DNA of 64,000 nt, taken from Prorocentrum cordatum. Its lineage: Eukaryota > Sar > Dinophyceae > Prorocentrales > Prorocentraceae. The translations under genes were made by a program, and so were the position numbers. This document shows positions 1-45,510 of this stretch, one piece after another (within the stretch, counting starts at the first letter, position 1; each line of letters begins with the position of its first letter). The notes below the pieces were generated by a model that was not told the origin of the DNA, did no database searches, and saw only the letters and a list, made by a program, of their open reading frames with translations. The stretch is taken from positions 1 through 64,000 of the forward strand of contig CAUYUJ010003424.1 of the NCBI GenBank assembly GCA_963575745.1, read 5' to 3'.

Positions 1-917
1 GGCCCATCTCGCCTGAGACATCCTCGCAACTCTGAGCTCTGAGATGCCGTGCGCAAGGTGGTCCGGCCCGTTTCGCACAAGACATTCTCGCAACTCTGAG
101 CTCTCAGACGCTGCGCAAGAGGTGGTCCAGCCTGGGGGTCCAGAAGACCACATGTTACATATCCTCCCTGGGACCCTGGAAGCCCCAGGAGGCCCCAGAG
201 AGCTTCAGGAGGCCGCAGGACGCCCAGGACAGGCCCCGGGGGTCCGCAGGATATTCCCAGGAGGCTCCCAGGAGGCCCCAGGAGGCACACTATCAGAACG
301 TGTCCAGTTAATACACATCCGGTGTCGATTCGTTGATTTTTCCTGCTCTTGTGGCCCACCCCACCCCCCCTTTTTGGGGGGCCCCGACGGCCACATGTTA
401 GATATCCCCCTGGGAGCCCCAAGAGGCTTCAGGAAGCCCCAGGTGGGGTCCAGGAGGCCACAGGAGGCCCAGGAGAAAGCCCTAGGAGGTCACCAAGAGT
501 TCCCAGGAGGCCCCAGAGGGCCCCGGCAACTCGGAGCTCTGAGACGCCGCGCTCGAGGTGGTCCGGCCCGTTTCGCCTGAGACTTCCTCGCAGCACGTGT
601 CGCCCGAGACATCGTCGCAACTCTGGGGTCCGAAATGCCGCGCGCGAGGTGGTCCAGCCCGTTACGCTGGAGACATCCTCGCAACTCTGGGCTCCGAGAT
701 GCCGTTCGGGATGAAGAGGAGGTGGAGGAGGAGGAGGAGGAGGAGGAGGAGGAGAAGGAGGAGGAGGAGGAGGAGGAGGAGGAGGAGGAGGAGGAGGAGG
801 AGGAGGCATGTTTTAACATGCCATGCCAGCCCGCACTGGACGGGCACGCAATCGACCTTGGAAACCGCAGTGGGTCTAAAAACCTGTTTGGGGATACTGC
901 ACTCCGGCTATAATCTT
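1..917. repeat. Copy A of a ~0.9-kb duplicated block
   Basis: This stretch recurs at 2860-3697 with the same order of parts: satellite-like GAGACATCCTC units, a CCAGGAGGCC-rich stretch, a unique-looking stretch around 305-345, a (GAG)n tract and a closing stretch that ends in GGCTATAATC. A partial third copy lies at about 2420-2640. Copy A differs by point changes and by an extra CCAGGAGGCC section at 430-520. No coding function is visible; the open frames here are translations of the repeat. Confidence 0.8.
718..806. repeat. (GAG)n microsatellite in copy A
   Basis: Nearly pure GAG/GGA repeat of about 90 bp. It is followed directly by an 18-bp palindrome at 804-821 (GGCATGTT-TT-AACATGCC), which copy C keeps with one mismatch. 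Translated frames give only poly-Glu, poly-Leu or poly-Ser. Confidence 0.95.
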
Positions 918-1888
918 TTGAGACGTGCGCCCGCGTACCTCTCGGTATCATCCCCGGGGGAACCATAACGACATGCCCCCCCGCTTCCGCGCCCTCCCCC
1001 GCTTCCTCTTAAAGCTGCTTCTGAGTTCACAGCATGGCGGTGGAGCCTCTCACAGTGCCGACCCGACAGCTTACTCGTCGACCAGGTGCGACCTGGGACA
1101 AAGCTCAGATGGGCAACTCTGGGCTTCGGTACGGGTTCCTCGCAAACCGGTTTTTATCTCATTTTTTAGGCGACTTGGTCTCAAAACGTTCCGAAGGAGG
1201 GGTTGGTATAGGGAGGGAGGAGAGGAGGAGCAGGCAGGAGAGGATAGGATGCAGGCATGAGGAGGATGCGGGTGGGATGGAGTTTGCATGATGAAGGGCT
1301 CAACAGAATCGAGAGGTAGAACGGCCCGTTTCGCTTGGGACATCCTTCGAATACTGAGCTCCGAGATGCCGCACGCGAGGTGGTCCAGCCCGTTTCTCCC
1401 GAGCCATCCTCACAATGCGAAGCTCCGAGATGCCGCCATGCGCGCCCTGCCTTCCGCCCTCCGCAGACATCCGACGTCACGATTTTTGTTTCGAGACGTG
1501 CGCCCGCGGACCTCTCGATCTCGTCCCCGGGACTGGTTCTTCGTCAGGGTTCTTCGAGATGCTGCGCACGAGATGGTGTGCCCCGTTCTGCATGAAACCT
1601 CTCTCATTCCCCCCACCTCCCTCCCCTTGCCTCCCGCCTGCCTCCCCTTCCCTCCTTCCTCCTCACGCCTCTCGCCTTTCGCTGCTGTGCCTCTGCCTCC
1701 GCCTCCCCGTCGCCGTCTCCGTCATTTTGCCGCCTCAACATCGGCCATGCGCGCCTTGCCTTCCGCCATCCCCAGACATCCGACGTCCAGATGTTTGTTC
1801 CCCAAACAGCTTGCTGAACGTGGTGCTGTTGTGATAGAAGCTAACTCTGGCCGAGGGAAAGGGGAGCAGAGACATCCTCAAAAAAATC
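918..1888. other. Gene-free stretch with a 46-bp dispersed repeat
   Basis: No supported gene. A segment of about 46 bp starting GAGACGTGCGCCCGCG at 918-964 recurs at 1493-1538. Two diverged units of the 64-bp satellite lie at about 1317-1440. The stretch 1610-1740 is C/T-rich. Open frames here have no recognisable domain. Confidence 0.6.
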
Positions 1889-2530
1889 TGATGGTCCGGG
1901 CCGTTTCGCTTGAGCCATCCTCACAACTCTCGTTTCTGAGTTGGCCGGGGTGGCCGTTTCGCCTGAGACACCCTCGAAAAGTTACGCTCCGGGACGCCGC
2001 GCGAGAGGTGGTCCGGGCCGTTTCGCTTGAGACATCCTCGAAACTCTGAGCTCCGAGGTGCCGTGCGAGAGGTGGTCCGGCCCGTTTCGCCTAAGACATC
2101 CTCGCAACTCCAGGCTCCGAGATGACGATTGCGAGGTGGTTCGGCCCGTTTCGCCTGAGACATCCTCGAAACTCTGAGCCCCGAGATGCCGTGCGAGAGG
2201 TGGTCCGGCCCGTTGCGCCTGAGACATCCTCGCAACTCTGGGCTCCGAGATGCCGCTTGCGAGGTGGTCCGGCCCGTTTCGCCTGAGACATCCTCGCAAC
2301 TCTGGGCCCCGAGGTGCAGCGCAAGAGGTGGTCCGGCCCGTTTCGACTGAGACATCCTCGCAACTCTGAGCTGAGATGCCCTGCGCGAGGTGGTCCGGCC
2401 CGTCTCGCCTGAGACATCCTCGCATTTCTGAGCTCTGAGATGCCGTGCGCAAGGTGGTCCGGCCCGTTTCGCACAAGACATTCTCCTAACTCTGAGCTCC
2501 CAGATGCCGCGCAAGAGGTGGTCCAGCCTG
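1889..2530. repeat. 64-bp tandem satellite array
   Basis: About ten head-to-tail units, each carrying CGCCTGAGACATCCTCGCAA, a CTCTGAGCTCCGAGATGCC-like stretch and GGTGGTCCGGCCCGTTTCG. The GAGACATCCT core recurs near 2029, 2093, 2157, 2221, 2285, 2349 and 2411, mostly at 64-bp spacing. The array continues more irregularly to about 2860. Because 64 is not a multiple of three, the minus-strand frames read through it as a cycling low-information peptide, which I do not regard as a protein. Confidence 0.9.
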
Positions 2531-2859
2531 GGGGCCCAGAAGACCATCTCTTACATATCTCCCCTGGGACCTTAGGAGCCCCAGGAGGCCCCAGAGAGCT
2601 CCAGGAGGCCGCAGGACGCCCAGGACAGGCCCTGCAACTCGGAGCTCTGAGACGCCGCGCTCGTGGTGGTCCGGCCCGTTTCGCCTGAGACTTCCTCGCA
2701 GCACGTTTCGCAAGAGACATCGTCGCAACTCTGGAGTCCGATATGCCGCGCGCGAGGTGGTCCAGCCCGTTACGCTGGAGACATCCTCGCAACTCTGGGC
2801 TCCGAGATGCCCTGCGCGGGGTGGTCCGGCCCGTTGCGCCTGAGACATCCTCGCAACTC

Positions 2860-3697
2860 TGAGCTCTGAGATGCCATGCGCAAGGTGGTCCGGCCCGTTT
2901 CGCTTGAGACATTCTGGCAATTCTGACTGAGCTCCCAGATGCCGCGCAAGAGGTGGTCCAGCCTGGGGGCCCAGAAAACCACATGTTACACATCCCCCCT
3001 GGGAGCCCCAGGAGGCCCCAGAGAGCTTCAGGAGGCCGCAAGACGCCCAGGACAGGCCCCAGGGGTCCGCAGGAGATTCCCAGGAGGCTCCCAGGAGGCC
3101 CCAGGAAGCTCCCTATCAGCACGTCAAGTTAATACACACCCGGTGCCGATTCGTTGAGTCTTCCTGCTCTTGTGGCCCCCCCCCTCATTTTGGGAGGCCC
3201 CGACGGCCACATGTTAGATATCCCCCCCTGGGAGCCCCAAGAGGCTTCAGGAAGCCCCAGGTGGGGTCCAGGAGGCCACAAGAGGCCCCCGCAACTCGGA
3301 GCTCTGAGACGCCGCGCTCGTGGTGGTCCGGCCCGTTTCGCCTGAGACTTCCTTGCAGCACGTGTCGCCCGAGACATCGTCGCAACTCTGGGGTCCGATA
3401 TGCCGCGCGCGAGGTGGTCCAGCCCGTTACGCTGGAGACATCCTCGCAACTCTGGGCTCCGAGATGACGTTCGGGATGAAGAGGAGGTGGAGGAGGAGGA
3501 GGAGGGATGATAGGAGGACAAAAAAGGCGAGGATGGTATGAGGAGGAGGAGGAGCAGGAGGGGGAGCAGGAGGAGGAGGAGGAGGAAAAGGAGGAGGCAT
3601 GTTTTACCATGCCATGCCAGCCCGCACTGGACGGGCACGCAATCGACCTTGGAAACCGCAGTGGGTTTAAAAAACCTGTTTGGGGATACTTCACTCC
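2860..3697. repeat. Copy C of the ~0.9-kb duplicated block
   Basis: Second full copy of the block at 1-917, ending at the same GGCTATAATC boundary. The (GAG)n tract (3485-3597) is interrupted. To its right the sequence changes abruptly to the decayed retroelement, so this boundary is either the edge of the duplicated block or the truncation point of the retroelement. Confidence 0.8.
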
Positions 3698-3715
3698 GGC
3701 TATAATCGTTTTGCT

Positions 3716-27061: not shown

Positions 27062-29075
27062 ACCACGACGACGACCCAGGGTCAGAGAAAACGAGACCAC
27101 GACCCAGGGTCAGAGAAAACGAGACCACGACCCAGGGTCAGAGAAAACGAGACCACGGCCCAGGGGCTGAGAAAACGAGAAAGTGAAGCAGGGTCAGAAA
27201 AAACGATCCAGGGGCCGAGAAAACAAGACCACGACCGAGGGGCAGAGAAAACGCGAAAACGAACTAGGGTCCGAGACAACGAGACCACGACCCAGGGTCC
27301 GACAAAACGAGTCAACGGGAAAACAAATCAGTGCCCGAGAAAACGAAACCACGATCAAAACGAAACAAAACCCAAAGCCGAGAAAACGAGAAAACGAAAC
27401 AATGAACCAGGGTCCGAGAAAACAAGATAACGATCCAGGGGCCGAGAACACGAGAAAACGAGAAAACGAACCAAGGTCCGAGCAAACGAGACCACGAACC
27501 AGGGCGAGAAAACGCAAGCATCGGTCCGAGAAAACGAGACCACGACACAGGGGCCGAGAAAACGAGAAAACGAACCAGGGTTCGAGAAAACGAGACTACG
27601 ACCCAAGGGCCGAGAAAACGAGAAAACAAACCAACGTCCGAGAAAACGCGACCACGACCAAAGGGCCGGAAAAACAAGAAAACGAGAACACTAAACAGGG
27701 TCCGACAAAACTGGACCACGACCCAGGGGCCGACAAAACAAGAAACGAGAACACGAACCAGGGTCCAAGAAAACATAACCACGACCCAGGGGCCGAGAAA
27801 AAGAGAAAACAAACCAAGGTCAGAGAAAACATAACCGCGACCAAAGGGCAGAGAAACCGAGAAAACGAGAAAACGAAACGGGGTCCGAGAAAACGAGACC
27901 ACGGCCAAATGGGCAGAGAAAACGCGAAAACGAACAAGCAAACCAGGGTCCGAGAAAACTTGACCACGACCCAGGGGCCGACAAAATAAGAAAACGAGAA
28001 AACGAAACGGGGTCCGAGAAAACTGGACCACGACCCAAGGGCCGAGAAAACGAGGAAACAAGACAACGAACCAGCGCCTGGGAAAACGAGACAAACAACA
28101 GGGGCCGAGAACACGAGAAAACGACCCAGGGGCCGAGAACACCAGAAAACGTGAAACGAACCAGGGTCAGAGAAAACTAGAAAACATTAGGCAACGACCC
28201 ATGGGCCGAGAAAACGAGAAGACGAGAAAACTAACCAGGGTCCAAGGACACATGAGACCACGACCCAGGGCCGAGAAAACAAGAAAACGCGAAAACGAAC
28301 CAGGGCCCGAGAAAACGACACAAGCACCCAGAAGCCGAGAAAACGAGACAACGAACCAGGGTCCGAGAAAACGAGACCACGACTCAGGGGCCGAGTACAC
28401 TAGAAATCGAGAAAACGAACCAAAGTCCAAGCAAACGAGAACACGACCCAAGGGCGCAGAAAACGCGAAAACAAACCAGGGTCCGAGACAAACGAGACTA
28501 CGAACCAGGGGCCGAGAAAACTAGAAAACATTAGGCAACGACCCATGGGGCCGAGAAAACGAGACCGCGACCCAGGGGCCGAGGAAACGAGAAAACGCGA
28601 AAACGACCCACGACCCAGGGGCCGAGAAAACAAGAAAACGAGAAAACGAACCAGGGTTCGACGAAACCACGACCCAGGGGCCGAGATCACCAGAAAACGC
28701 TTGGCTCGAGAAAACGAGACCACGACCCAAGAGCCGAGAAAACGAGGAAACGAGAAAACAAAACAGGGTCAGAGAAAACGAGACCACCACCCGGGGGCCG
28801 AGACAACGAGAAAACGGGAATACGAACCAGCGTCCGAGAAAACAAAACCACGACCCAGGGTCCAAGAAAACGAGACCACGACCCAGGGGCCGAGAAACGA
28901 GAAAACGAACCAGGGTCAGAGAAAACGAGACCGCGACCCAGGGGCCGAAAAAACGAGAAAACAAGAAAACGAACCAGGGGCCGAGAAAACGAGAAAACGG
29001 TAAAAAGGAATCAGGGCCCGAGAACGAGACTACGAACCAGGGGCCGAGAAAACAAGACAACACGAAAACGAACCA
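27062..29075 (+). repeat. 2-kb minisatellite of GAAAACGAGA units
   Basis: Two alternating modules, GGGTCCGAGAAAACGAGACC-ACGACCC and AGGGGCCGAGAAAACGAGAAAACGAACC, repeat with variable spacing of 25-60 bp for 2 kb. The plus strand is strongly A/G biased, with few T. Some frames stay open for 270 codons but consist only of RENEK/PRKRD-type repeats, and their frame changes between units. Confidence 0.9.
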
Positions 29076-29099
29076 GAGGTCGTCGTTATTCTCCTATGC

Positions 29100-31488: not shown

Positions 31489-31646
31489 ATTCTCCCGCTC
31501 GCGCGCTAGCGAGCTGTCTCCGAGCGCGGCCGCGGCTCGCGCGCGCGGGGCGGCCCAAAATGGGCAGGCCCGTCCCGCGCGCTCGTGCCGGGGCGCCGCG
31601 CGTCAGGCGGGGGAGACCGCCTGCTCGCCGACGACGGCGAGGCAGC
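31489..31646 (-). repeat. Split direct repeat B2 (element 3' end)
   Basis: 158 bp identical to B1 at 31735-31892. It begins (plus strand) AT-TCTCCCGCTCGCGCG. Outside it lies a GAG tract. With B1 it brackets A2, as expected for a copy that lets reverse transcription rebuild both element ends. Confidence 0.95.
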
Positions 31647-31680: not shown

Positions 31681-31736
31681 GGGCAGAGAAGCTGCGGAGA
31701 CAGCAGGAGCTTGCTCACAGAGAATAGAAGAGGCAT
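31681..31736 (-). repeat. Split direct repeat A2
   Basis: 56 bp identical to A1 at 42109-42164. It overlaps B1 by the dinucleotide AT, the presumed crossover core. A 34-bp linker (31647-31680) separates it from B2. Confidence 0.95.
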
Positions 31737-31892
31737 TCTCCCGCTCGCGCGCTAGCGAGCTGTCTCCGAGCGCGGCCGCGGCTCGCGCGCGCGGGGCGGC
31801 CCAAAATGGGCAGGCCCGTCCCGCGCGCTCGTGCCGGGGCGCCGCGCGTCAGGCGGGGGAGACCGCCTGCTCGCCGACGACGGCGAGGCAGC
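31735..31892 (-). repeat. Split direct repeat B1
   Basis: 158 bp identical to B2, starting 11 bp after the stop of the recombinase ORF. Confidence 0.95.
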
Positions 31893-31903
31893 CATACCCG
31901 TGC

Positions 31904-34597
31904 TCAAGGACCTTGCGAAGTGACAAGGTTTCGGCGGGCGGCCGCAAGTAGGGCAGGCCAAGCGGCGGGGCCGACTTGGAGAAATGAAGCGACAAGGCGG
32001 TCGCTGGCGGTGGCGAAGAACAGGATCCGCGCCCGTGCGGGCACGGGCAGCGCAGCAAGAACTGTGGAAGCGGCGGCGGCTTGCAGGTAGCGCTCAGCAC
32101 TGGAAGCCTGACGCCAACGCCCCCGCCAGAAGACGCGAGGGACGTCTTCCGTAGCGATATAGAAGTCTGTTGCGCCAGAGCCCCGCAGACATGCGGGCGT
32201 CAGGTTGAGCCCCTGACCCGCTTTGGCAAGAGGGACGCCCAGGGCCGAAAGCAAATGATTCCACCGAGTACGGAAGCCGCTCGCACCGAAAGGGGCGAGA
32301 GGATCGGTGGAAGCCAACCGCCCAAACACTTGATTCAGAATCTTCACCGTGCCCCGATCGGAGCAGCGAGCATGCTGCGTCGGGTACGTTCTCCTGGTCT
32401 TGGGAACAAGAATCGAAAGAAAAGCATCCCCTTCAACTTCGAGGCGGTCGCAAGGAAGCGACAAGTCACAGCGGCGTGACGCCAGCAGCTCGCCAGGCCT
32501 GAGGAACATCGTAAAGCCCATGAGCAGCAAGGCCGCCATCACAGGCCAGTCCCAGGCGAAACAGAGACCGACCATAGCGCGCAGCAGAGCGCGAGGTAAG
32601 GGCGGGCGGAGCTTTGGCGGCTCCGCGAGCTTCCATTGTTTCGCTACGTCCCAAGCTTCTGTTAGAAAGGCCTTCCAATGCGGATGAGCGCTCTGGATTC
32701 CCAAGATGGCATGAACCAGAATATAATGAGGGAAACCTGCATCATGAAGCCACACGCCGAAGGTCGCGAGGAAGCGGGCGAGAAGTATCCCGCTACGGTA
32801 AAGAGTGGCGGGCGGCACGCCAGTGTGTTCTGCTAACCACAGTTCGAACGCATCAATCGATCTCGAGCGACGATCGAGATACGCGGAGGTGAGGTGAGAA
32901 TCGCGCACGAAGGGAGTGCGCGGAGGGCGAGCGGGCGCAAAAGGCGCAGCCCGACTAAGCCCTTGGCCTGCGGTCGGCGCCGCGGCTCCCAGAGAGATGC
33001 AGAGGCCGCAGACGCACCACAGGATGAGCGCAGGGCGGCCAGGGCTGGGAGAGCTGATCAGCGTGGCGGCCCTCCTGCTCCTGGACGCGTAGAAGGGCGG
33101 AACGAGGGTGTCCCGCCCGTCGGTCTCGAACCCCGACGCCTCCGCCAGCATCGCCCGCGCCGAGGTGAAGGATCCGCCCATGTTACGGTGAGCACGGCGA
33201 GCCCCTGCTTCGATCTCGGCGGGCAGAGCGCCCCCTCCCTCGAGGGTCGCCCAGTCAAAGGGCGGGCGCGGCTCGGCGCGCGCAGCTGCGGCCGATTCGG
33301 CGAGCTCGGAACGAGCTGCCGAGGACGTGAGGCCCGAATGATGTGGAACGGGCACCACCTCCGCGAACGCGTCGAGGATCTCGGACGGAGGGGAATGAGA
33401 TCCCCACAGCGCTGCTGGGATGGCGCCGTGACCGTCCTGCACGTGGTACAGAAGGTCGAAAAGGCAGGCCAACTTGCCCGCGCGCCTCCTGTGCTCGATC
33501 TTTGAGCCGAGCCCGATGCCACGGATGGCGCCCGCCCCCATGGCTTGGAGGTCAGCGCCCGCGGGGATAGCCTCGGGCTCGACGGCGGCCACGTAAGGAT
33601 GCAACCACGAGGCTTCGTCGATCGGCTCGGCGCCGCCTGTCTGAAACAGGCGCTTATAGGCGTGCAAGGCCTGCAGGAGGCAGTGCAGGTCATCTCTGCC
33701 TTCGGGCTCGGCGGCCCCTGCGGGTGCGAAAGACCTCAGCCACGACGCCGCGCTCTGGAAGGCAGCTTGCCAGGCGGGTCCCCACCTCACCACTGTGACC
33801 TTCTCACCGCCGAGGTTGAGACGCCACGCTAGGGCGGTGGCGGCCCCTGGAGGCAAGGGCTGCTCAACGGCCGCGGAGGCCGTGCGCCGCGCTGCGAAGG
33901 CTGCAGCCGCGGCGCTCCCAGCGTCGCCGCTGTGGGAGCCGCTGGGATGCAGCTCGTGCCCTGAATCTCGGCCAGGCGCGGGGCCGCTCGAAGACCCCCT
34001 TTCCTCGGCGGCACGCCCTCCGCCCTGCGGGGCCGCAACAGCATCGCTGGAGGAGCGCGTGCCTACCGAAGACTGAGGGGCCTGAGCAGCGGAGTCCGCG
34101 CGGGAGCTGCCTGCGTGGGCGTCGCCCGAGCTCGCACCATGGCGGGACGTGGCTGGCCGCTGCGCAGTAGCGGGGCTCGGGCGCCGCTTCGGAGCGACTC
34201 GAGGGGAGCGCACCTCGCGACGCCGAGGCGACGTCGCCTGACGCGAAGGCGCGCGAGAGGAGCCGCGCGCGACGGCCCGACTAAGCCCCTGGCCTGCGGT
34301 CGACGCGCGGGATCGCGACGCCGCACGCCCACCAGAGTGGTGAGGGGGCGGCGGCGGCGGCGGGGGCACGGGCCGCGGAGTCTCGGAGCCTAGACGCGTG
34401 CCGCGGCCCCGAGAGCGACTGCGAGCCGAGGCCCGAGCGGCGGGCGGAGAGGCCCCCGAGCGGCGAGGGAAGCCGCCTGCAGGCGGCGGAGGACCTCGGG
34501 GTTCAGGCCCGCCACGACGCGCTCGAGGTCCATCGAGGAGTCTGCGAGGGCACTCAGCACGACGTCCTCGAGCTCCGTCGGAGAGTCCTCGTCGCAC
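31904..34597 (-). CDS. Tyrosine recombinase of the YR retrotransposon
   Basis: 897 codons. The first 500 residues are disordered and basic (RSRSRG, proline run, Ala-rich); the C-terminal third is the catalytic domain. Visible catalytic positions: Arg about 700 in FLRPGELLA, Lys about 733 in LVPKTRRT, Arg about 805 in ACLRGSGATDF, Trp about 828 in GRW (the His/Trp position) and the nucleophile Tyr about 837 in ERYLQ. The usual His of the H-x-x-R box is replaced (A-C-L-R). It would cut and rejoin the circular cDNA at a short homologous core. The start is uncertain: the ATG at 34597 is the first in this frame, but a well-composed frame upstream (34390-35618) may supply the true N-terminus through a frame change. 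A 25-bp sequence encoding AGQGLSRA occurs twice (34279-34303, 32951-32975). Confidence 0.85.
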   Translation of the reverse strand: MRRGLSDGARGRRAECPRRLLDGPRARRGGPEPRGPPPPAGGFPRRSGASPPAARASARSRSRGRGTRLGSETPRPVPPPPPPPPHHSGGRAASRSRASTAGQGLSRAVARGSSRAPSRQATSPRRREVRSPRVAPKRRPSPATAQRPATSRHGASSGDAHAGSSRADSAAQAPQSSVGTRSSSDAVAAPQGGGRAAEERGSSSGPAPGRDSGHELHPSGSHSGDAGSAAAAAFAARRTASAAVEQPLPPGAATALAWRLNLGGEKVTVVRWGPAWQAAFQSAASWLRSFAPAGAAEPEGRDDLHCLLQALHAYKRLFQTGGAEPIDEASWLHPYVAAVEPEAIPAGADLQAMGAGAIRGIGLGSKIEHRRRAGKLACLFDLLYHVQDGHGAIPAALWGSHSPPSEILDAFAEVVPVPHHSGLTSSAARSELAESAAAARAEPRPPFDWATLEGGGALPAEIEAGARRAHRNMGGSFTSARAMLAEASGFETDGRDTLVPPFYASRSRRAATLISSPSPGRPALILWCVCGLCISLGAAAPTAGQGLSRAAPFAPARPPRTPFVRDSHLTSAYLDRRSRSIDAFELWLAEHTGVPPATLYRSGILLARFLATFGVWLHDAGFPHYILVHAILGIQSAHPHWKAFLTEAWDVAKQWKLAEPPKLRPPLPRALLRAMVGLCFAWDWPVMAALLLMGFTMFLRPGELLASRRCDLSLPCDRLEVEGDAFLSILVPKTRRTYPTQHARCSDRGTVKILNQVFGRLASTDPLAPFGASGFRTRWNHLLSALGVPLAKAGQGLNLTPACLRGSGATDFYIATEDVPRVFWRGRWRQASSAERYLQAAAASTVLAALPVPARARILFFATASDRLVASFLQVGPAAWPALLAAARRNLVTSQGP

Positions 34598-35618
34598 GCG
34601 GGCTCCGCTCTCGAGCGGCTGCGAACGCTCGCGGGCGGGGACCCGTCAGGAGTGTGCGGGCCCTCCGATGCCTCCCCCGCAGGCGGCTCCGACGGCTCCT
34701 CGGGCGAGATCGGGCCGTCGACGGGAGGCGACGAGCAGCCCCCCGAGGGAGAGGTGCGGTCGGTCCCGTACGGGTTTGGAGACCGCGTACGGCTGCGGGC
34801 AGGGCTGCGGCTCCGCGGTGGGGAGCCCACTCCCGCTGCGGAGCTGGGGCGTGCCGCGCCTGCCCAGCGGCGCGCATTGGCAGTGCGACGCGCCCTGCGG
34901 CCAGGCGCCGTGGCGGCCCCCCCCTCAGGGGCGGGGAGCGCCGCCATCGAAGCCCGCCGCTGCCTGGCGGCGCGCCTGGTGCGCGCGGCGCCCGTGCGCG
35001 AGGCGGAGTGCGGCGCGTGACCACCGCGGTTGGGCTGGTCCTCGACCGCCTCATCCCGCGGGCCCAGGCGGGCGCGGACCGCGCGCCGCTCACGACGGCT
35101 GAAGCTGGACGCAGGGTCGTCGGCGGGCCTTGCCAAGGCGCGCGGGTCCTCAGCCTCCACCTCGGCCAAGGAGCGGCCAGTGGACGACGCGGGTGCGTCC
35201 CCAGCACGAGCGGCACGGTCTGCGATGGCGAGGCCCGTCGAGACCTCAGCGTTGTGCAGGACGGCGCGCAAGGTCTTGCGCCAATCCCGACCCAGCTGGA
35301 CGGGAGCAGTGCGCGGCAAGCCCGCGGCCTCTCGACTGGCGGCCTCGCGCCCGCGTCGGAAGTAGGCGCGATCGGCCATCCCTTCCGCGAGCTCGGCACG
35401 AGCGACGGCACGCTCTCCTTCGCCGCGTGCAGGAGCCTGCACCGTGCGCCTGGTGGCGGCGGCACGCGCGGTGCGGAGTGCGTCGAGCTCCACGCGGCCG
35501 CGCGACACGGCGGAGACGAGGGTGGCATCCGACTCAGCCGCCCGCCCCTGTTTTCCCCCCCGGCGAGGGCAGACGAAACCCCCTCCCCCTCGGGAGAGGC
35601 GCGCCAGAAGGCGCGTGG
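34390..35618 (-). CDS. Possible N-terminal part of the recombinase ORF
   Basis: Open frame between the poly(A) tract and the recombinase. It contains Ala/Arg-rich, helix-like stretches (LGRDWRKTLRAVLHNAEVS, SLAEVEAEDPRALARP) followed by Ser/Pro-rich sequence and DSPTELEDVVLSALADSS. It overlaps the recombinase frame by 208 bp in another frame, so joining them would need a frameshift or splicing. No family is recognised. It may instead be a separate small ORF, or an accidental frame of GC-rich DNA. Confidence 0.4.
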
Positions 35619-35635
35619 AGTGCACAAAGAAAGAA

Positions 35636-35760
35636 AAATACAAAAAAAATAAAAAAAAAAAAAAAAAAGAAAAAAAAAACAAAAAAAACAAAAAAAATAA
35701 AAAAAAAAACAAATAAATCTAAGAAAAAAAAAAAAAAAAAAAAAAACAAAAAAATTTAAA
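35636..35760 (-). promoter_or_regulatory. Poly(A/T) tract between ORF2 and the recombinase
   Basis: About 125 bp of nearly pure A on the plus strand, hence a long T-tract in the sense direction, starting at the ORF2 stop. In the sense RNA this is a U-rich polypyrimidine tract and could precede a 3' splice site (cis or trans) for the downstream ORF; no specific AG is decided. Alternatively it is an old poly(A) insertion in antisense. Confidence 0.35.
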
Positions 35761-38700
35761 CATAAAACCATGAAAATAACAAAATTGCCCGAGGGGCCAG
35801 CTCGGCGCTCGCAAGGGCGACCCGCGAGGAGACCGCCTCTTCGAGTGCCTGAAGGGCAATGGTCGACCCTGGAGCCAGCTTGCCCTTGCGGGCGCCCTTT
35901 CCTGCCGCCTTGGCCCGGGCGTAGGCGCGGGCGGCAGGACCGTCGCCGCCCGTGCTAGGAACATCGGGCGGCGCGGCGGCCTGCGAGACGGCCTGGAGCA
36001 ACACTGACTGGGCGTCACAGAGCTGCTTCCACTTCAGCGCGCGGGCTGCTCGCTCGTCGGCGCCCAGGTGCGCGGGAGTCCTGTCTGGATGGTAGACTAG
36101 GGACTGGCGCCTGAAGGCGGCCACAATTGTGCCGCGCGAGGCCCCGTCCACTACGCCAAGCAGTTGGCGAGAGGCGCTCACCCTGGCCGCTCGCTGGAAG
36201 GTGCGGGGGGTAGCTGCTGAGGCCCCCTTTGGCGCTTCCCGCGAGCCGACGCGCGACGAGCCCACCCCGATAGCAGGCGGAGGGGCCGCCGCGGCCTTGG
36301 AGCGGAGGGCCAGTGGCGGAGCACGCTTGGCGGCCTGGGGAGCCGATCCTGCGCTGGCGGCGCCAGGGTCGGGGCCGGGCGAGCCGCCCTCCGCGGAGGC
36401 AGACGCTTTTGGCGTGGCGTCTGCCGAGGACGCGAGAGGCCGTTCGCTGTCAGCGAAGAGCGCGTTGCGAGGCCCGCGACGCTCTCCGCTGGCGAGAGCA
36501 GCTTCAATGCTGCTCTCGGCGGCGCCCGAGGGGTCAGGTGCCTCCCCCTGGGCGCCGTCGCTGGCGGCGTCGGCGGTCATCCCCGCGCCCTCCGAGGGGG
36601 GGGGGGCGGCCGCCCAGCGGTGGCTGAGCAGCCCCTCGGGGCCTCGAGCCACAAGCTGCGCAACAAATCGGCCCCAGAGACAAGTAGGGAATGACGAGCG
36701 GGAGTCGGCGTACGCAATGCAATCAAAGCGAGTAAATTCTCCTCTCTCTGCTTCAACTAACCAGGCGGGAGGGTCACGGGACGGGGGCCTCACCGCACGG
36801 TTCCGCGTGGGGTCGTCGGCCCTGTGCACGTCCGTAGGCACGTACATGCCTCCCATATATAAACCTCCTCCTATCACATAGGGCAAAGTGGTCGAAAGAA
36901 CGTGAGATAGACCAGGAGAGCTACTGCGCCCGTGAGCGGTCGCGCCCAAAGCCACTTTTGAATCCAAGAGAACGGGGATACGAGAGTCAGGGAGGCGAAT
37001 ACAGCAGTACTTGCACAAGCTCTTATACACCGTTGTCTCAAGGATATTGATGTGACGGGGCATGCGAAACTCCCATTTGTACGCGAGCCGAAAGCGCAGC
37101 GCCTCTGATAGCTCGGTGACCCAACGCGGCGCGACGGGGGGCTCAATAGAAGGGAGCCCCAGGTCGCGATGCAGTTGGGTGAGCTCAGGGCCCAAGGGCA
37201 CGCCGCGGCTGAGTACGGCGAGGAGGCTCCGATTGTGCAGGATCGTGTGCCACCCCCCGTGCTCCGATCTGCGCCACAGCTCGGCGGAGAGCTGCGGGCT
37301 GATAGGAGCGCGGACAACGCCCCCCCAGCCGAGAGACGCGTCCGTACCGAACACCTCGGGGCAAGGCTGCGCCCGAAGGTCGGTTATAGCCGTAAAGGCT
37401 AAAAAGGTGCAGGCCAAAAGCTCGTCGCGAACAGAAGGAGGCAAGTCGTATTCAATGCCCTCCTCGGTCGCCAGGCGCGACAGGAAGTTGTAGACGTGCG
37501 TGAAAATGGCGAGCATCGGACGGCGATAGAGGAACACCTGGACCCAGCAGCCCACAAGAGAGGCTAACAGGGAGCGTGTGGTGATGCCGAGGTAGATTTG
37601 GATCAGGGTCAGCCTGCACAAGGCCACCGTCCGCACTAAGGGAGCGCAGACGATGCCTATGCGCCCTTCCACCTCGGCGCCCACCACCACCTTGTGCGTT
37701 TCGCCGCGCGCGCGCTTGCCTGGATGCTGAATCAGGCCCACGCGCGGGTAGCCTGCATCGCAGGCGGCGAAGACCTCACGATCACGACGACAGGGGTCGT
37801 CGGGGCGAGGAGCGGAGCCATGCCACGAGAGCTTCTGAAAACCTGTATGGTCATCAATATTCAGCATCTCGACAAACGGGCCCCGCGGGAAGGGCGAGCG
37901 GTGGACAACCTGCTCGTGAGGCCGCAAGGCCCCGAAGCTGTGCAAGACGCCTTCATGTGCAGAGTTGGCAATCTCCACCGCCATGTTGTCGCCCATCGCT
38001 AGAGCATTGAGGCAAGGCGCGACGTCCACACCTTCGAGCTCGGGGCGCCAGGCTCGAAAGGCCTTGAAGCGGGATGATGGCAGACGAACGCGAAGGGCGT
38101 TACGCCTGGCGCGCGCGGGAGGAACGCGGAAAGTGTAGTAAAACTCCCGTAGGTCGTCGCAAGAAACTGCCAGCCACTCCCCAGGCGCCAGACCCAAACG
38201 GCACAGCAGGAAACCCTGGCCAAGGCGCTGGGTGCTGGACGAGATTGAGGCACAGCGGCTGTTCACGACCGTTGGGTTCAGGATCAGCCTGTCGTAGTCG
38301 CTGTCCTTCGGTACCCTGAAAGCTCCGCAGGCTTCATCCCAGGCGAGGTCCGAAGCAGGAGTCAGGTACAGGGCGCCGCAGGCATCCCACTTCTGGAGCA
38401 GGGCCCACAGCTCGGCGCGGTCCATATGGACACGCGCCCCCTTTTGGCCAGCAGGCCACTCTGACGCCGGGAGCCGCATCTCCTCTGGATTGATGAACGC
38501 TTCGCGGACTCGAGCGTCAGAGAGAAATGGAATGGGATCAAACACTGGCGAATAATCCCACTTAATGCGAGACGCCCTGACTTTAAATCGAAGGGCTCGA
38601 CCTGGGTGGAGTCCCAAGCCGCCGCAGACGCCAGCGAACCAGGCACGGAAGGAGCGCTGGTCGGGCAGTGCCGCATGGGGGCGGGCACGGAAGAAGAGGA

Positions 38701-39606
38701 GGTGAAGGGGGCCTCCAAAGCTGCAACATGGGTGGCCAGGCCATGGAGCGAGACCTCAGTAGAGTCGAACTTGGCGAAGGCTCGACCTAAGTCGCTCTTG
38801 CCACCGCGGGCGAGGCGAACTGCGATCCGACACAACCGTTCGATACGGGTGCGGACGCCCTCCTGGCAGGGCGAGACCGTGGCACGGACGCGAGCCTCGG
38901 CGGGAGCGAGGCTAGGATGACCCAAAGTGAGCCAGTTCAACGCAATAACAGAATACTGCGCGAGCGTCCGCGCCGCGCGCCGCAATCTCCAGCGCTCCCT
39001 GCGCCTCGCCGACAAGCCGTCAGGCGGGGGACCAAGAGGTGGAGCAGGCGGGCACGGCCAAGGATCGCGGGGAGGCGGCCCCAAAAGGCACGGGTCGTCC
39101 CTGTCCATTGCACGCATAGATGAGCGGGAGAAAGATCCAAGAGAACATCGAGCACCCATCCCAACCTGGGACAGCGCTGCCGCCCAGTGGGTGATATCAA
39201 TGTTCGCACCTGGAAACAGGCGCAGCAAGGCAGACAAGTCAGCGACAAATGGCGCGACGTTGGCAAGAGCAGCAGGGGTGCTTGAAGGAGAACAAGCACC
39301 AGCAAGAACACCAACCTCAGGGGCTGCAGGCCCCATGGGGGGAGCGCTCGACTGAGGCAGGTGACGGCCAAAATGGCCGAATGGATCCGAGGGGCGGTTC
39401 GGAGCAGAGCGAGGGGCGTGGTGGCGGAACGTACTCCTCCCTGCGGGGCCGCAACAGCATCGCTGGAGGAGCGCATTCCTACCCTCACGCCCTCGCTGCG
39501 CCCAAACACGCCTAGCAGCCGTAGCAGCGTCGGTGCAGACTGTCTGCGGCGGCGTACCTCGGCCACGCGAAGGCCCCCCCTCCAAGAAGGCGGGCGCCAA
39601 GGGCAT
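35756..39606 (-). CDS. RT-RNase H-J-domain protein (ORF2)
   Basis: ATG at 39606 starts two bases after the ORF1 stop (TGAAGATG). About 345 codons of N-terminal region are followed by a +1-type frame change near 38575; from there the frame ending at 35756 is uninterrupted. Numbered from its first Met (38617): template-contact RLILNPTVVNSR 110-121; RT motif A CDDLREFYYTF 153-163; motif B AMGDNMAVEIAN 207-218; motif C NIDDH 253-257; RNase H GTDAS with Asp426, Glu527 in INILET, Asp552 in LLDSK, and Asp601/602 in RADDPTR; a low-complexity linker 670-810; a J-domain 814-873 with HPD at 843-845; a basic tail. It would copy element RNA and remove the template strand. The J-domain predicts Hsp70 recruitment. 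Confidence 0.85.
35996..36178 (-). other. DnaJ J-domain at the C-terminus of ORF2
   Basis: Residues read RQLLGVVDGASRGTIVAAF, then RRQSLVYHPDRTPAHLG, then RAARALKWKQLCDAQSVLL. Helix I ends in LLGV, helix II carries basic residues up to the invariant HPD (codons 36091-36083), and helix III/IV follows with the K-W-K-x-L-x-D-A-x-S-x-L pattern of J-domains. J-domains stimulate Hsp70 ATPase. The domain is in frame with the RT-RNase H, separated by a 140-residue Ala/Pro/Ser linker. Confidence 0.85.
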
Positions 39607-39608
39607 CT

Positions 39609-41549
39609 TCAGTCCTTCTTGGGCACCGCCTTCGGGGCCTTGGGAGCACCCTGAGATTTGAAGGGGGGCTTTGAGACCTTGGGCTGCTTGGGCTGATGAG
39701 GTGGATGCTTGGGGAGCGCGACGGCGCGCTCGGCGTCGAGGCGCGCCCGAAATGCTTGCAGCTCCTTCATGTATTCGCCCTGCGCCGACAGCCAGCGAGG
39801 ATCCACTAGGGGTGAAAACGGGGTCTGGGCCTCGCGCTCCGTGTGACGACTGGTCACGCGACACGGGGGAGGCTCCAGCCCCGTGAGGAACCAAGCGGCC
39901 TCGAGGTAGCCGCGGTCCCCCGCCAACTGGTCGATGAACATGCACTGGCAAGTCAGCAAGGTCTGGACCCTCTCGGGGTTGCCCTCCTCGCAGGCCCGCC
40001 ACAGCTCGGCGCTGAGGAAGGCAAAATGCGTCAACAACTCGTGCGTCGACGGCTGAGTCCCGAGGGGGCTGTGCTCGCGAAAGTACTGATGCATGGCCAT
40101 GGGGGTCACGGCGCTGACTTCCACGCCCAGAACGCGGGCCAAATTCTCCTTCATCAGTCCTCGCACGTCGGGGCCGTGCTGCATCAGCGCTTGCTGCCAC
40201 TCGCGCCTCCGAGCGATTCCCCCCATCTGAGCCGATGCGTGCGCGGGGTCGCCCGAGGTCGCGGGCGGAGTTTGAGCTTGGTCGCTCAGGGTCCCCAGAA
40301 GCGGGTGGAAGGCTGGGCGATGGCCCCGCCCCTGCTGCAAGGAAAGGGACTGGTGCAGGCACTGAAGCATGAGGCTGAAGTCCGTCGGATTGGCCGCAAG
40401 GGGCGGCTCTAACCCGTCGGCGCCGCCCACCTCGGCAAAGCCGTCGACCGCAGCGGGATAGGCTAGCCCAGGCGGCGGCGGGGGGCCCATCGGTCCGAAA
40501 GCGGACGAAGGGGCCCGAGGGACAGCAGAAGAGCGCGCCTTCTCCCACGCCGAGACCAGCGCGGAGGTGGGTCCCTTGGGGCGCGCGGAGACCCGATGAG
40601 GGGCCACGGGTGCGTGGGACAAGACGGCCTCGATCCCCGCAGGATCCAGCCCGAGGCGCGCCGCCTCGTCGCTGAAAAGCTGAGGCACCTCGGGCCGAGC
40701 GCTCTGGGCAGCCGGAGCGGGGCCCAGCGGTTCGGGTCCGCCGACCATCGTGGAGGCCGCGTGGGCTGCAAGCAGGGCGCGCATTTCGGCAGCTACCTCG
40801 GCGCGGGTCATGGGAGCCCCGTCGTCCAGAGACGCCGCAGGAGCGCCAGGAGCAATCGGAGCAGGACCCGCGACCCGTGGCGGCGCGGCGGCGCCAGCGC
40901 GCTTGGCGGGCGGGCCGCGCGGCGCTCCAGCGACCGCGGGGGCTCGCGCACTTGGGGCCGCGCGGTCGGCTTCCCCGTCGGCCGCGAACCCCTCGGGCTC
41001 CTCCATCTCGTCGGCAGAGTGGTAGGGGGTAGCCCGATCGGCCCCTGGGAGAGGCTCTTCCCCTGCGGTAGGCGGGGCGCCGTGCAAACGAGCGTAGCCC
41101 TCGCGAAGCACCCGAACCCCCGAAGGATGCGGCCAATAGACGCGGCTGCGCACCTCGGCGAAGGGAACGATGCCTGCGTCGTCGCCGACCTCTAGAGGGT
41201 ACAGCGACTCGAGCTCGAGCTCGGCAACCTCGATATCTATAACGAGGACGGATGCGGTAGTGGCGAGCGGCCGTGAAGCGGCCCCCTGGAGCTGGACGTC
41301 CACTAGCTGGAAGGGGCCTATCATCCCAGCAAAGCCATCCGCCTCGGCAGCCTCGAGCTCCGCTGTAGAGCGAAAGGCACCAGGCAGGGCCAGCAGGATG
41401 CCCCCTTCTCGAGAGGCGAGGGGGATAGCCGCCCAGCTGGTGTCGCCGTCGTCTAGGCGCCATCGTGCGTAGTCGCGCGCCGTGGGCGCAGCGAAAGGGT
41501 AGAGCTCGGGCCAAAGGGGCCCTCCGCCAACTGGTGGCAGCTCCGCCAT
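39609..41549 (-). CDS. gag-like protein of the YR retrotransposon (ORF1)
   Basis: 646 codons. The N-terminal 150 residues are mixed and globular-looking; residues 180-330 are Ala/Pro-rich linker; the C-terminal half has helical stretches (REWQQALMQHG, LMKENLARVLGV) and a conserved-looking end: AELWRACEEGN, LLTCQCMFIDQLAGDRGYLEAAWFLTGLEPPP, then FSPLVDPRWLSAQGEYMKEL and a Lys/Pro tail suited to binding nucleic acid. I recognise this C-terminal pattern from dinoflagellate YR elements, where it precedes the RT ORF. There is no zinc knuckle. Its ATG overlaps the stop of the upstream membrane-protein ORF (TGATG), which fixes this start. Confidence 0.75.
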   Translation of the reverse strand: MAELPPVGGGPLWPELYPFAAPTARDYARWRLDDGDTSWAAIPLASREGGILLALPGAFRSTAELEAAEADGFAGMIGPFQLVDVQLQGAASRPLATTASVLVIDIEVAELELESLYPLEVGDDAGIVPFAEVRSRVYWPHPSGVRVLREGYARLHGAPPTAGEEPLPGADRATPYHSADEMEEPEGFAADGEADRAAPSARAPAVAGAPRGPPAKRAGAAAPPRVAGPAPIAPGAPAASLDDGAPMTRAEVAAEMRALLAAHAASTMVGGPEPLGPAPAAQSARPEVPQLFSDEAARLGLDPAGIEAVLSHAPVAPHRVSARPKGPTSALVSAWEKARSSAVPRAPSSAFGPMGPPPPPGLAYPAAVDGFAEVGGADGLEPPLAANPTDFSLMLQCLHQSLSLQQGRGHRPAFHPLLGTLSDQAQTPPATSGDPAHASAQMGGIARRREWQQALMQHGPDVRGLMKENLARVLGVEVSAVTPMAMHQYFREHSPLGTQPSTHELLTHFAFLSAELWRACEEGNPERVQTLLTCQCMFIDQLAGDRGYLEAAWFLTGLEPPPCRVTSRHTEREAQTPFSPLVDPRWLSAQGEYMKELQAFRARLDAERAVALPKHPPHQPKQPKVSKPPFKSQGAPKAPKAVPKKD

Positions 41550-41551
41550 CA
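41547..41551 (-). promoter_or_regulatory. TGATG stop-start overlap
   Basis: The stop TGA of the membrane-protein ORF (41551-41549) and the ATG of the gag-like ORF (41549-41547) share one base. This arrangement is the classic layout for termination-coupled reinitiation and suggests one RNA serves both ORFs. Confidence 0.7.
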
Positions 41552-42106
41552 GTGGGCGCCGCCGTGGACGCCGCCGCCCGCACGCTGGGCGTCTGCCCGC
41601 TCGAGCGCTTGAGGTCGAGGCGGAGCCCCGTAGGCCAGCGCTCGCGCCGCACGGCGGTCCTGCTCAGGTGAAGCAGAAACCGCGCCGCGCGGCCAGGCGG
41701 AGGGCCAGAGCCTCCGCCACACGTACGGGCCCAGCAGCCCGAGGCAGCAGCCCGCGCAGGCGCTGCAGGCGGCCGTCACCCAGAGGAGGGCGGCGACCGT
41801 GCTGAGCAGCCAGGGAGAGACCCCGCCGCTCAGGTCCACCGCCAGCCCGAGGCAGACGGTGGGGCAGGTGGAACCCGCCGAAGGGAGAGGGCAGGAGGCC
41901 CCCTCGCCCTCGGACGAGTCCGCCTGCAGGATGGACCAGGCAGGAGCTGGAGGCCCCTGGTCCTGAAGCACAGAGCGGGGGGCAGCCACGAGCCGCTCGT
42001 AGAGCGCGGCCCGCAGCCCCCTGAACAAAATCTCCCCCGCGCCCTGGAGAGCCGCTTGTGCGACCGCCTGCATAAGGCGCCCGCACGCGCGGCCGACGGG
42101 GGGCAC
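41549..42106 (-). CDS. Small membrane protein of the YR retrotransposon (ORF0)
   Basis: 185 codons starting three bases after repeat A1. Residues 10-45 are Ala/Arg/Leu-rich helix; 60-90 are Ser/Cys/Pro-rich; 96-126 form one hydrophobic segment (PWLLSTVAALLWVTAACSAC, then AGCCLGLLGPYVW) followed by Arg-Arg, consistent with one transmembrane helix; the rest is polar. The stop overlaps the gag-like start codon by one base. I have an impression that small membrane ORFs precede gag in dinoflagellate YR elements. Function unknown; an envelope-like or membrane-anchoring role would be speculation. Confidence 0.6.
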   Translation of the reverse strand: MPPVGRACGRLMQAVAQAALQGAGEILFRGLRAALYERLVAAPRSVLQDQGPPAPAWSILQADSSEGEGASCPLPSAGSTCPTVCLGLAVDLSGGVSPWLLSTVAALLWVTAACSACAGCCLGLLGPYVWRRLWPSAWPRGAVSASPEQDRRAARALAYGAPPRPQALERADAQRAGGGVHGGAH

Positions 42107-42108
42107 TT

Positions 42109-42164
42109 GGGCAGAGAAGCTGCGGAGACAGCAGGAGCTTGCTCACAGAGAATAGAAGAGGCAT
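42109..42164 (-). repeat. Split direct repeat A1 (element 5' end)
   Basis: 56 bp identical to A2. It abuts the first ORF on the inside and a CAT microsatellite on the outside. The final AT (plus strand GGCAT) matches the AT at the outer edge of B2. Confidence 0.95.
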
Positions 42165-43650: not shown

Positions 43651-43734
43651 TGAGGAGTTTTCTGTGGAACTCACTCCATCCTCACCCCCCCGCGAAGAGC
43701 ACGGAGCCCAAGCGGCCTCCGGCACCGGTTTCCT

Positions 43735-45510
43735 GAACGATCCGCTGGATCCGCTGGATCCGCTGGATCCGCTGATCCGTGACGGAAATCCCCAAACCGG
43801 CGCCCTCCGCCTGAGACATCCTCACAAACGGCCCCGGGGGATGCCCAGAGACCCAGAGCGGCCGTCCGGCACCGTTTCCGTGGACGGATCCGCTGGATCC
43901 GCTGGATCCGGTGACGAATCCCAAACCGGCGCCCTCGCCTGAGACATCCTCACAAAACGGGCCCCGGGGGGGATGCCCAGAGGAGCCCAGAGCGGCCTCC
44001 GGCACCGGTTCCGGACGGATCCGGTGGATCCGCTGGATCCGCTGGATCCGGTGACGAATCCCAAACCGGCGCCCTCGCCTGAGACATCCTCACAAAACGG
44101 GCCCCGGGGGATGCCCAGAGGAGCCCAGAGCGGCCTCCGGCACCGTTTCCGGACGGATCCGCTGGATCCGCTGGATCCGGTGACGAATCCCAAACCGGCG
44201 CCCTCGCCTGAGACATCCTCACAAAACGGGCCCCGGGGGAGGTGCCCAGAGGAGCCCAGAGCGGCCTCCGGCACCGTTTCCGGACGGATCCGCTGGATCC
44301 GCTGGATCCGCTGGATCCGGTGACGAATCCCAAACCTGCGCCCTCGCCTGAGACAACCTCACAAAACGGGCCCCGGGGGGGATGCCCAGAGGAGCCCAGA
44401 GCGGCCTCCGGCACCGTTTCCGGACGGATCCGCTGGATCCGCTGGATCCGCTGGATCCGGTGACGAATCCCAAACCGGCGCCCTCGCCTGAGACATCCTC
44501 ACAATACGGGCCCCGGGGGGGATGCCCAGAGGAGCCCAGAGCGGCCTCCGGCACCGTTTCCGGACGGATCCGCTGGATCCGCTGGATCCGCTGGATCCGG
44601 TGACGAATCCCAAACCGGCGCCCTCGCCTGAGACATCCTCACAAAACGGGCCCCGGGGGGGATGCCCAGAGGAGCCCATAGCGGCCTCCGGCACCGTTTC
44701 CGGACGGATCCGCTGGATCCGCTGGATCCGGTGACGAATCCCAAACCGGCGCCCTCGCCTGAGACATCCTCACAAAACGGGCCCCGGGGGGGATGCCCAG
44801 AGGAGCCCAGAGCGGCCTCCGGCACCGTTTCCGGACGGATCCGCTGGATCCGCTGGATCCGGTGACGAATCCCAAACCGGCGCCCTCGCCTGAGACATCC
44901 TCAAAAAACGGGCCCCGGGGGGGGATGCCCAGAGGAGCCCAGAGCGGCCTCCGGCACCGTTTCCGGACGGATCCGCTGGATCCGCTGGATCCGGTGACGA
45001 ATCCCAAACCGGCGCCCTCGCCTGAGACATCCTCACAAAACGGCCCCGGGGGGGATGCCCAGAGGAGCCCAGAGCGGCCTCCGGCACCGTTTCCGGACGG
45101 ATCCGCTGGATCCGCTGGATCCGCTGGATCCGCTGGATCCGGTGACGAATCCCAAACCGGCGCCCTCGCCTGAGACATCCTCACAAAACAGGCCCCGGGG
45201 GGGATGCCCAGAGGAGCCCAGAGCGGCCTCCGGCACCGTTTCCGGACGGATCCGCTGGATCCGCTGGATCCGGTGACGAATCCCAAACCGGCGCCCTCGC
45301 CTGAGACATCCTCACAAACGGGCCCCGGGGGGGATGCCCAGAGGAGCCCAGAGCGGCCTCCGGCACCGTTTCCGGACGGATCCGCTGGATCCGCTGGATC
45401 CGGTGACGAATCCCAAACCGGCGCCCACGCCTGAGACATCCTCACAAAACGGGCCCCGGGGGGGATGCCCAGAGGAGCCCAGAGCGGCCTCCGGCACCGT
45501 TTCCGGACCG
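43735..45510 (+). repeat. Nested satellite with variable GGATCCGCT subrepeat
   Basis: Thirteen units anchored by GAGACATCCTCACAA at 43813, 43941, 44081, 44210, 44350, 44490, 44630, 44761, 44892, 45024, 45172, 45303 and 45433. Unit sizes of 128-148 bp differ mainly by one 9-bp GGATCCGCT step (two to four copies). Unit parts in order: CGCCTGAGACATCCTCACAA, CGGGCCCCGGGGGG, ATGCCCAGAGGAGCCCAGAG, CGGCCTCCGGCACCGTTTCC, BamHI-site subrepeats, GTGACGAATCCCAAACCGGC. Confidence 0.95.

Follow-up and report, generated by a model that had tools for sequence, protein, structure and literature searches.

We identified a J domain that is carried in frame by many copies, and by several lineages, of a clade of retrotransposons within one genome, possibly that of a dinoflagellate alga. 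It was found in a DIRS-like tyrosine-recombinase retrotransposon on the minus strand of the window, i.e. the whole 64-kb stretch of DNA analysed here, where the C-terminus of ORF2 could be confirmed as a genuine J domain in frame with reverse transcriptase (RT) and RNase H. A first-pass annotation had described the locus as an RT-RNase H-J fusion. The in-frame fusion and its occurrence in many copies hold, but the element also carries a predicted tyrosine recombinase and is DIRS-like. The annotation had further noted that it knew of no described retroelement with a J domain; likewise, none was recognisable in the accessible parts of the open-licence literature searched, including PMC11453091 and PMC12220804, the latter of which, in the text available, deals with polinton-like viruses and other chaperones.

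The J domain (35993-36178) is part of a stop-to-stop frame of 999 codons (38755-35759, minus strand), which encodes RT and RNase H as well, and it starts ~155 codons past the end of the RNase H homology. Its hallmarks are located at the nucleotide positions proposed initially, with LLGV starting at 36163, a basic helix II, the HPD tripeptide at 36091-36083 (minus strand) and helix III containing KWKQLCDA; counted in codons they occupy 865-921 of the stop-to-stop frame and not 814-873 as first given. The Pfam DnaJ model (PF00226; cut-off 27.8 bits) matched the C-terminal piece of ORF2 with E 2.2e-6 and 28.1 bits, just over the cut-off, which rules out the absence of a profile match, whereas the whole window ORF scored 24.8 bits (E 2.4e-5), below it. 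The profile match covers 35993-36163. NCBIfam DnaJ models also recognised the domain (best E 5e-5, others weaker), and a PDB sequence search returned WBSCR18 (E 4.4e-4), which we take to be DNAJC30, and human HSP40/DNAJB1 (E 7e-4), the remaining matches being weaker. A single-sequence structure model predicts a helical domain, for which fold comparison returned no significant match. GC content by codon position is coding-like in J (0.73/0.54/0.79), compared to 0.77/0.74/0.79 in the preceding linker. Domains typical of class A/B Hsp40 proteins, i.e. G/F or C-terminal substrate-binding domains, had no Pfam match in the tail, region X or the part N-terminal to the recombinase, and an NCBIfam scan of the latter two did not detect them either.

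High-GC frames in the window are often open on both strands, which leaves room for the idea of a chance HPD or of an assembly artefact joining two unrelated genes. We give this idea virtually no weight: it is ruled out by the E-values of the profile matches, by at least 150 matches to the J region, nearly all of them on other contigs, and by diverged lineages carrying the domain. A J-like pattern occurs once across the six frames of the 64-kb window and in 0/20000 codon shuffles of the ORF.

The whole element spans 42164-31491 (minus strand) and is bounded by split direct repeats in the order A1-coding-B1-A2-B2, which enclose the J domain. The 5' terminal repeat A1 (42109-42164, 56 nt) is identical to the internal repeat A2 (31681-31736) at 56/56 positions, and the internal repeat B1 (31737-31892, about 156 nt) is identical to the 3' terminal repeat B2 (31491-31646) up to the flank. 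This identity of terminal and internal repeats suggests a young insertion. The junction between B1 and A2 reads GGGAGA-ATG-CCTCTTC, and a B-A-B arrangement was present in 5/5 other copies fetched to the 3' end. The element is flanked by an (ATG)n array on the left and by CCTCCTCC on the right, triplet repeats in which a short target-site duplication is indistinguishable. Indeed, all ends seen, that is both ends in the window, the 3' ends of five copies and the 5' end of one, abut triplet arrays of CAT/ATG/CCT/CTC type, suggesting a target preference for triplet repeats. Outside the element, the window contains further repeat arrays at 43703-45508, 27064-29085 and 1-3711. A spliced-leader pattern had 0 matches in the 64 kb.

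Following A1, a gag-like open frame of 684 aa (39612-41663) without family match is encoded in a separate frame with its own stop. RT-RNase H of the DIRS type (36630-38578) retains SCDDLREFYYTF, NIDDH and GTDAS as well as 116 of 129 columns that are invariant among 13 relatives (at least 8 of them with letters), and the predicted model of the RT matches retroviral RTs (E 7e-15). An Ala/Pro-rich linker with weak codon periodicity (36194-36629) leads to the J domain, which is succeeded by a basic tail starting with AYARAKAAGKGARKGK (35780-35992) and directly thereafter by a T-rich tract with scattered other bases (35600-35765); the window frame ends at 35756, ahead of this tract. Farther downstream are region X (34471-35544), for which neither Pfam nor NCBIfam returned a match, a coding region N-terminal to the recombinase (32894-33850), which shows codon bias and likewise has no match in these two collections, and the tyrosine recombinase (31970-32893), in which RGSGAT, WRGRW and the following Y are kept. 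The recombinase is at most 40% identical to the recombinases of relatives, and the window stretch did not reach a match to PF00589, which the recombinases of four relatives reach with E 0.065-1. Homology to the recombinases of relatives and motif conservation nevertheless point to a tyrosine recombinase in place of an integrase. Pfam methylases were not found in the window frames scanned.

Two kinds of short repeats were observed within the coding part. A 32-nt repeat, 94% identical, is located ahead of the recombinase (32949-32980 and 34275-34306). A 61-nt repeat is present past the gag stop (39423-39483) and in frame with the recombinase part (34007-34067), the two copies being 90% identical; it can read (V)GxRSSSDAVAAPQGGxRAA in the window as well as in L075, L076, L077, L078, L079 and L080, six loci of sister lineages. 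The pattern precedes the recombinase in frame and, in the sister lineages, is situated near J, and it is found in 0/94 of the database relatives described below. At 39423-39483, RSSSDAVAAPQGG is obtained only if the gag frame is continued beyond its stop, and the pol frame does not give it. This weakens the idea that the repeated RSSDAVAAPQGG motif represents a processing site, and a protein motif seems no more likely than a signal at the nucleotide level.

We searched the 4.13-Gb assembly containing the window, whereby all copy numbers are lower bounds. The J region had at least 150 matches with 96-100% identity, 119 of the matches listed sharing one score. No stop codon interrupts J in any of those listed, and 39 of them are part of an open frame that measures exactly 3230 codons from stop to stop. 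In 4/4 copies read (L069, L070, L072 and L073), J and the recombinase share this frame, and in the three pieces reaching that far (L069, L070 and L072) the RT is included as well, the piece of L073 stopping short of it. A further locus, L071, has a frame of 3912 codons, which ends before the recombinase motif. A nested insertion of J beside an unrelated element is ruled out by this common frame of RT, J and recombinase in other copies.

The frame of L069 covers the window pieces 38062-35780 (including the basic tail; 99.3% identity), 35544-34471 (region X; 99.2%) and 34471-31907, overall at 98.8-99.3% identity, and region X is there in frame with J and recombinase. A T-rich tract behind J is present in 0/63 other J loci looked at. 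Since the sister copies share one frame and the tract is found in the window alone, we conclude that pol, J and recombinase make up a single long frame in this family and that the copy in the window has been damaged. On contig C18031 the 3230-codon frame corresponds to 150686-160375 inside an element of 10.5 kb. Gag was considered as part of this frame, which is wrong: both in C18031 and in the window it occupies another frame and ends at a stop of its own, with 96/96 end residues identical between them. The first part of the 3230-codon frame overlaps the gag ORF, leaving about 2500 codons behind the gag stop. The frame change between the N-terminus of pol and the RT, which the first-pass annotation had assumed, is missing in C18031, the single sister copy followed in this respect. 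Provided that the cell uses this long frame as it stands, the J domain would be part of the translated polyprotein.

In protein databases, the scored candidates included 94 homologues of RT-RNase H (best E 1e-156, 47% identity), three of which are named Amphidinium carterae and one Skav. Searches of viral and of prokaryote contigs gave no relatives. PF00226 was detected in 0/94 at E <= 1, and the HPD tripeptide occurs in 13/94, by eye never in the context of a J domain. Many of these sequences are fragments, RNase H and recombinase both being visible in 64, and therefore the absence of J is weaker evidence for the rest. Residues 600-999 of the frame had no match in a protein-database search (0/7997 candidates scored). 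The gap between RNase H and recombinase measures -12 to 181 residues in 54 of the 64 relatives and 412-506 in the other ten, whereas it comprises about 1200 codons in L069, holding J and regions without assigned function. A further difference concerns the 2A-type NPGP motif, which is present in 56/94 relatives but absent from the three sense frames of the window element. Relatives with a full RNase H region (P0001 and many long ones) contain an insert of ~280 residues there with GPPCxxFG and EQPGS motifs, which by eye we take to resemble a cytosine methyltransferase, although no Pfam methylase is listed among the 94; the window element has no insert at this site.

Within the genome itself, related elements do not all lack the domain, although 0/94 database relatives matched PF00226. 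Using the RT-RNase H of A. carterae (P0051) as query, we found at least 71 elements with other frame lengths, and a J segment follows RNase H in 9/9 RT-selected copies sampled from those listed. These nine, selected according to frame length or score group, were read over short regions following RNase H; L082-L084 comprise 301 nt each, and two of these three end before helix III is complete. Six sister-lineage J segments and the commonest main-family form all match PF00226 (7/7; E 8e-8 to 5.3e-4), the main-family form with 32.7 bits, above the cut-off, and the six with 20.5-27.3 bits, under it; these six and the whole window ORF, likewise under it, span E 4e-6 to 5e-4. LL, RR of helix II, HP, W and CDA are invariant across the seven aligned segments. 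A joint profile built from them finds human HSP40 with E 5.4e-9 and recovers 7/8 DnaJ loci of the same genome, and its best 60 PDB matches are J-domain proteins apart from uS9, which ranks last among them. The contig G000:C1558 (L079, L081) has RT residues 189-387 that are 97.5% identical to the window, while J is only 53% identical, which gives the element containing L079 a mosaic appearance.

A J domain with intact HPD should be able to engage Hsp70, and the first-pass annotation had proposed recruitment of host Hsp70. In agreement with this, HPD is kept in 60/60 main-family loci fetched, two of which represent the window copy, with some copies in both sets and all picked by J similarity. 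Against it as a general rule, only 3/9 RT-selected copies (L075, L078 and L079) keep HPD, the others having HPG (L077, L084), HPT (L080, L082, L083) or HPA (L076), and the RT scores of these copies recur in several further elements. Stimulation of Hsp70 therefore cannot be needed in every lineage, and we argue that the use of Hsp70 may be dispensable or changed in the lineages without HPD. These replacements in 6/9 copies, together with the invariant LL, RR, HP, W and CDA, would fit a J domain that derives from a host Hsp40 and still folds, serving as a non-catalytic module that spaces RT and recombinase, binds the polyprotein or RNA, or determines localisation, all without need for Hsp70. We regard this as rather unlikely, because the amplified main family retains HPD, as do the L079 and L075/L078 lineages, and the HPD-bearing comparison reveals purifying selection.

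The latter became apparent when J of the main family was compared with L079 (dN 0.39, dS 1.49, dN/dS 0.26, Fisher 1.4e-5): J is under purifying selection between two lineages in one strong comparison. Between window and L079, the linker had dN/dS 0.57 and the RNase H tail dN 0.15 with saturated dS, and the RNase H tail is hence more constrained than J. In 14 other J pairs, dN/dS was 0.28-0.77 in 12 and undefined in two, and p was < 0.05 in 9/14, values which are uncorrected and come from pairs that are not independent and mostly saturated in dS. Within the main family, J varies by 1 nonsynonymous and 0 synonymous changes; at the young age of this family, selection on J would not yet be visible, and since the copies are nearly identical and were chosen by J similarity, they cannot be used for this purpose. 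Linker and region X gave pN/pS 0.77 and 0.90 within the family, after sequences at least 6% off the commonest had been dropped (RNase H 62 to 51, linker 63 to 55, region X 63 to 54; no J or tail sequences fell under this threshold). Freely varying neighbouring regions and the lack of measurable selection on J in the young family are what would be expected if a fragment of a host gene had been captured once and carried along by amplification as a neutral passenger. We consider this improbable, given that the frame stays open between lineages despite saturated synonymous divergence, that dN/dS of J is 0.26 in the above comparison and that J is present in 9/9 sampled copies.

With moderate confidence, we favor the reading that J is a captured host module acting as a built-in Hsp40 that engages host Hsp70 at the polyprotein. 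A clade of DIRS-like tyrosine-recombinase retrotransposons probably acquired J, the likely source being a host protein of the Hsp40 type, and has retained it in a single long reading frame, with RNase H on one side and the recombinase on the other. There, J may engage host Hsp70 beside the nascent or assembled polyprotein, which could aid folding, assembly or release of the large protein with its RT. In lineages without the HPD aspartate, J would have a non-catalytic binding role or be decaying. A more far-reaching version, which we put forward tentatively and hold to be less probable than the captured module as such, states that the clade encodes its own Hsp40 in a giant polyprotein, under selection and swapped as a cassette between lineages by recombination, like the DNA methyltransferases of sister elements. 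Some viruses use J domains to redirect the Hsp70 of their host, e.g. SV40 with large T, and J could by the same token interfere with the host, for instance by titrating the Hsp70 of heat-shock control or silencing; however, J resides within the frame of the replicative proteins and is not a free protein, and we deem such interference very improbable. Retroelements are thought to borrow chaperones from their hosts. If an element does encode its co-chaperone, its reliance on chaperones would become heritable and open to testing, and a natural experiment is provided by this genome, in which some sister lineages have HPD and others do not.

Among known J-domain proteins, DNAJB1 and DNAJC30 resemble the window J in sequence, sharing basic helix II, the HPD loop and a helix III of KWKxLCDA type, but here J is embedded in a retroelement frame and no G/F or C-terminal client-binding region was found with it. 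As for the element, the available part of PMC5890265 describes SymbioDIRS-Dnmt3 of Symbiodinium with similar features: an RT-RNase H of DIRS type missed by Pfam models, a tyrosine recombinase, A-coding-B-A-B repeats and an extra domain within Pol. SymbioDIRS carries a cytosine DNA methyltransferase as its extra domain, in contrast to the J domain of the window element. The resemblance of the 94 homologues to SymbioDIRS is by description only (PMC5890265, in part). Ngaro and PAT elements share the split direct repeats, which in Ngaro have the order A1-B1-A2-B2, the internal pair following the recombinase, and Ngaro, like the window element, has no methyltransferase (PMC4157794, text available). 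From these two the window family differs by its J domain, by one long frame from RT to recombinase and by ends that abut triplet arrays.

Accessory domains of retroelements include chromodomain, exonuclease and helicase (PMC6338049, in the parts available) as well as the DNA methyltransferases mentioned above (PMC5890265); if our interpretation is correct, a protein-folding module would be added to these. For Ty1, the host factors surveyed in the accessible sections of PMC3522557 include the ribosome-associated chaperone Zuo1 and the HSP70-family member Sse1. A functional parallel is the RT of duck hepatitis B virus, for which the accessible text of PMC5541001 states that priming activity of the full-length protein needs Hsc70 and Hsp40. 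On account of this requirement, help in folding of the RT or the polyprotein appears to be the likeliest use of J. Hepadnaviruses obtain their Hsp40 from the host (PMC5541001), whereas the element analysed here encodes a J domain of its own, which may exert a comparable effect.
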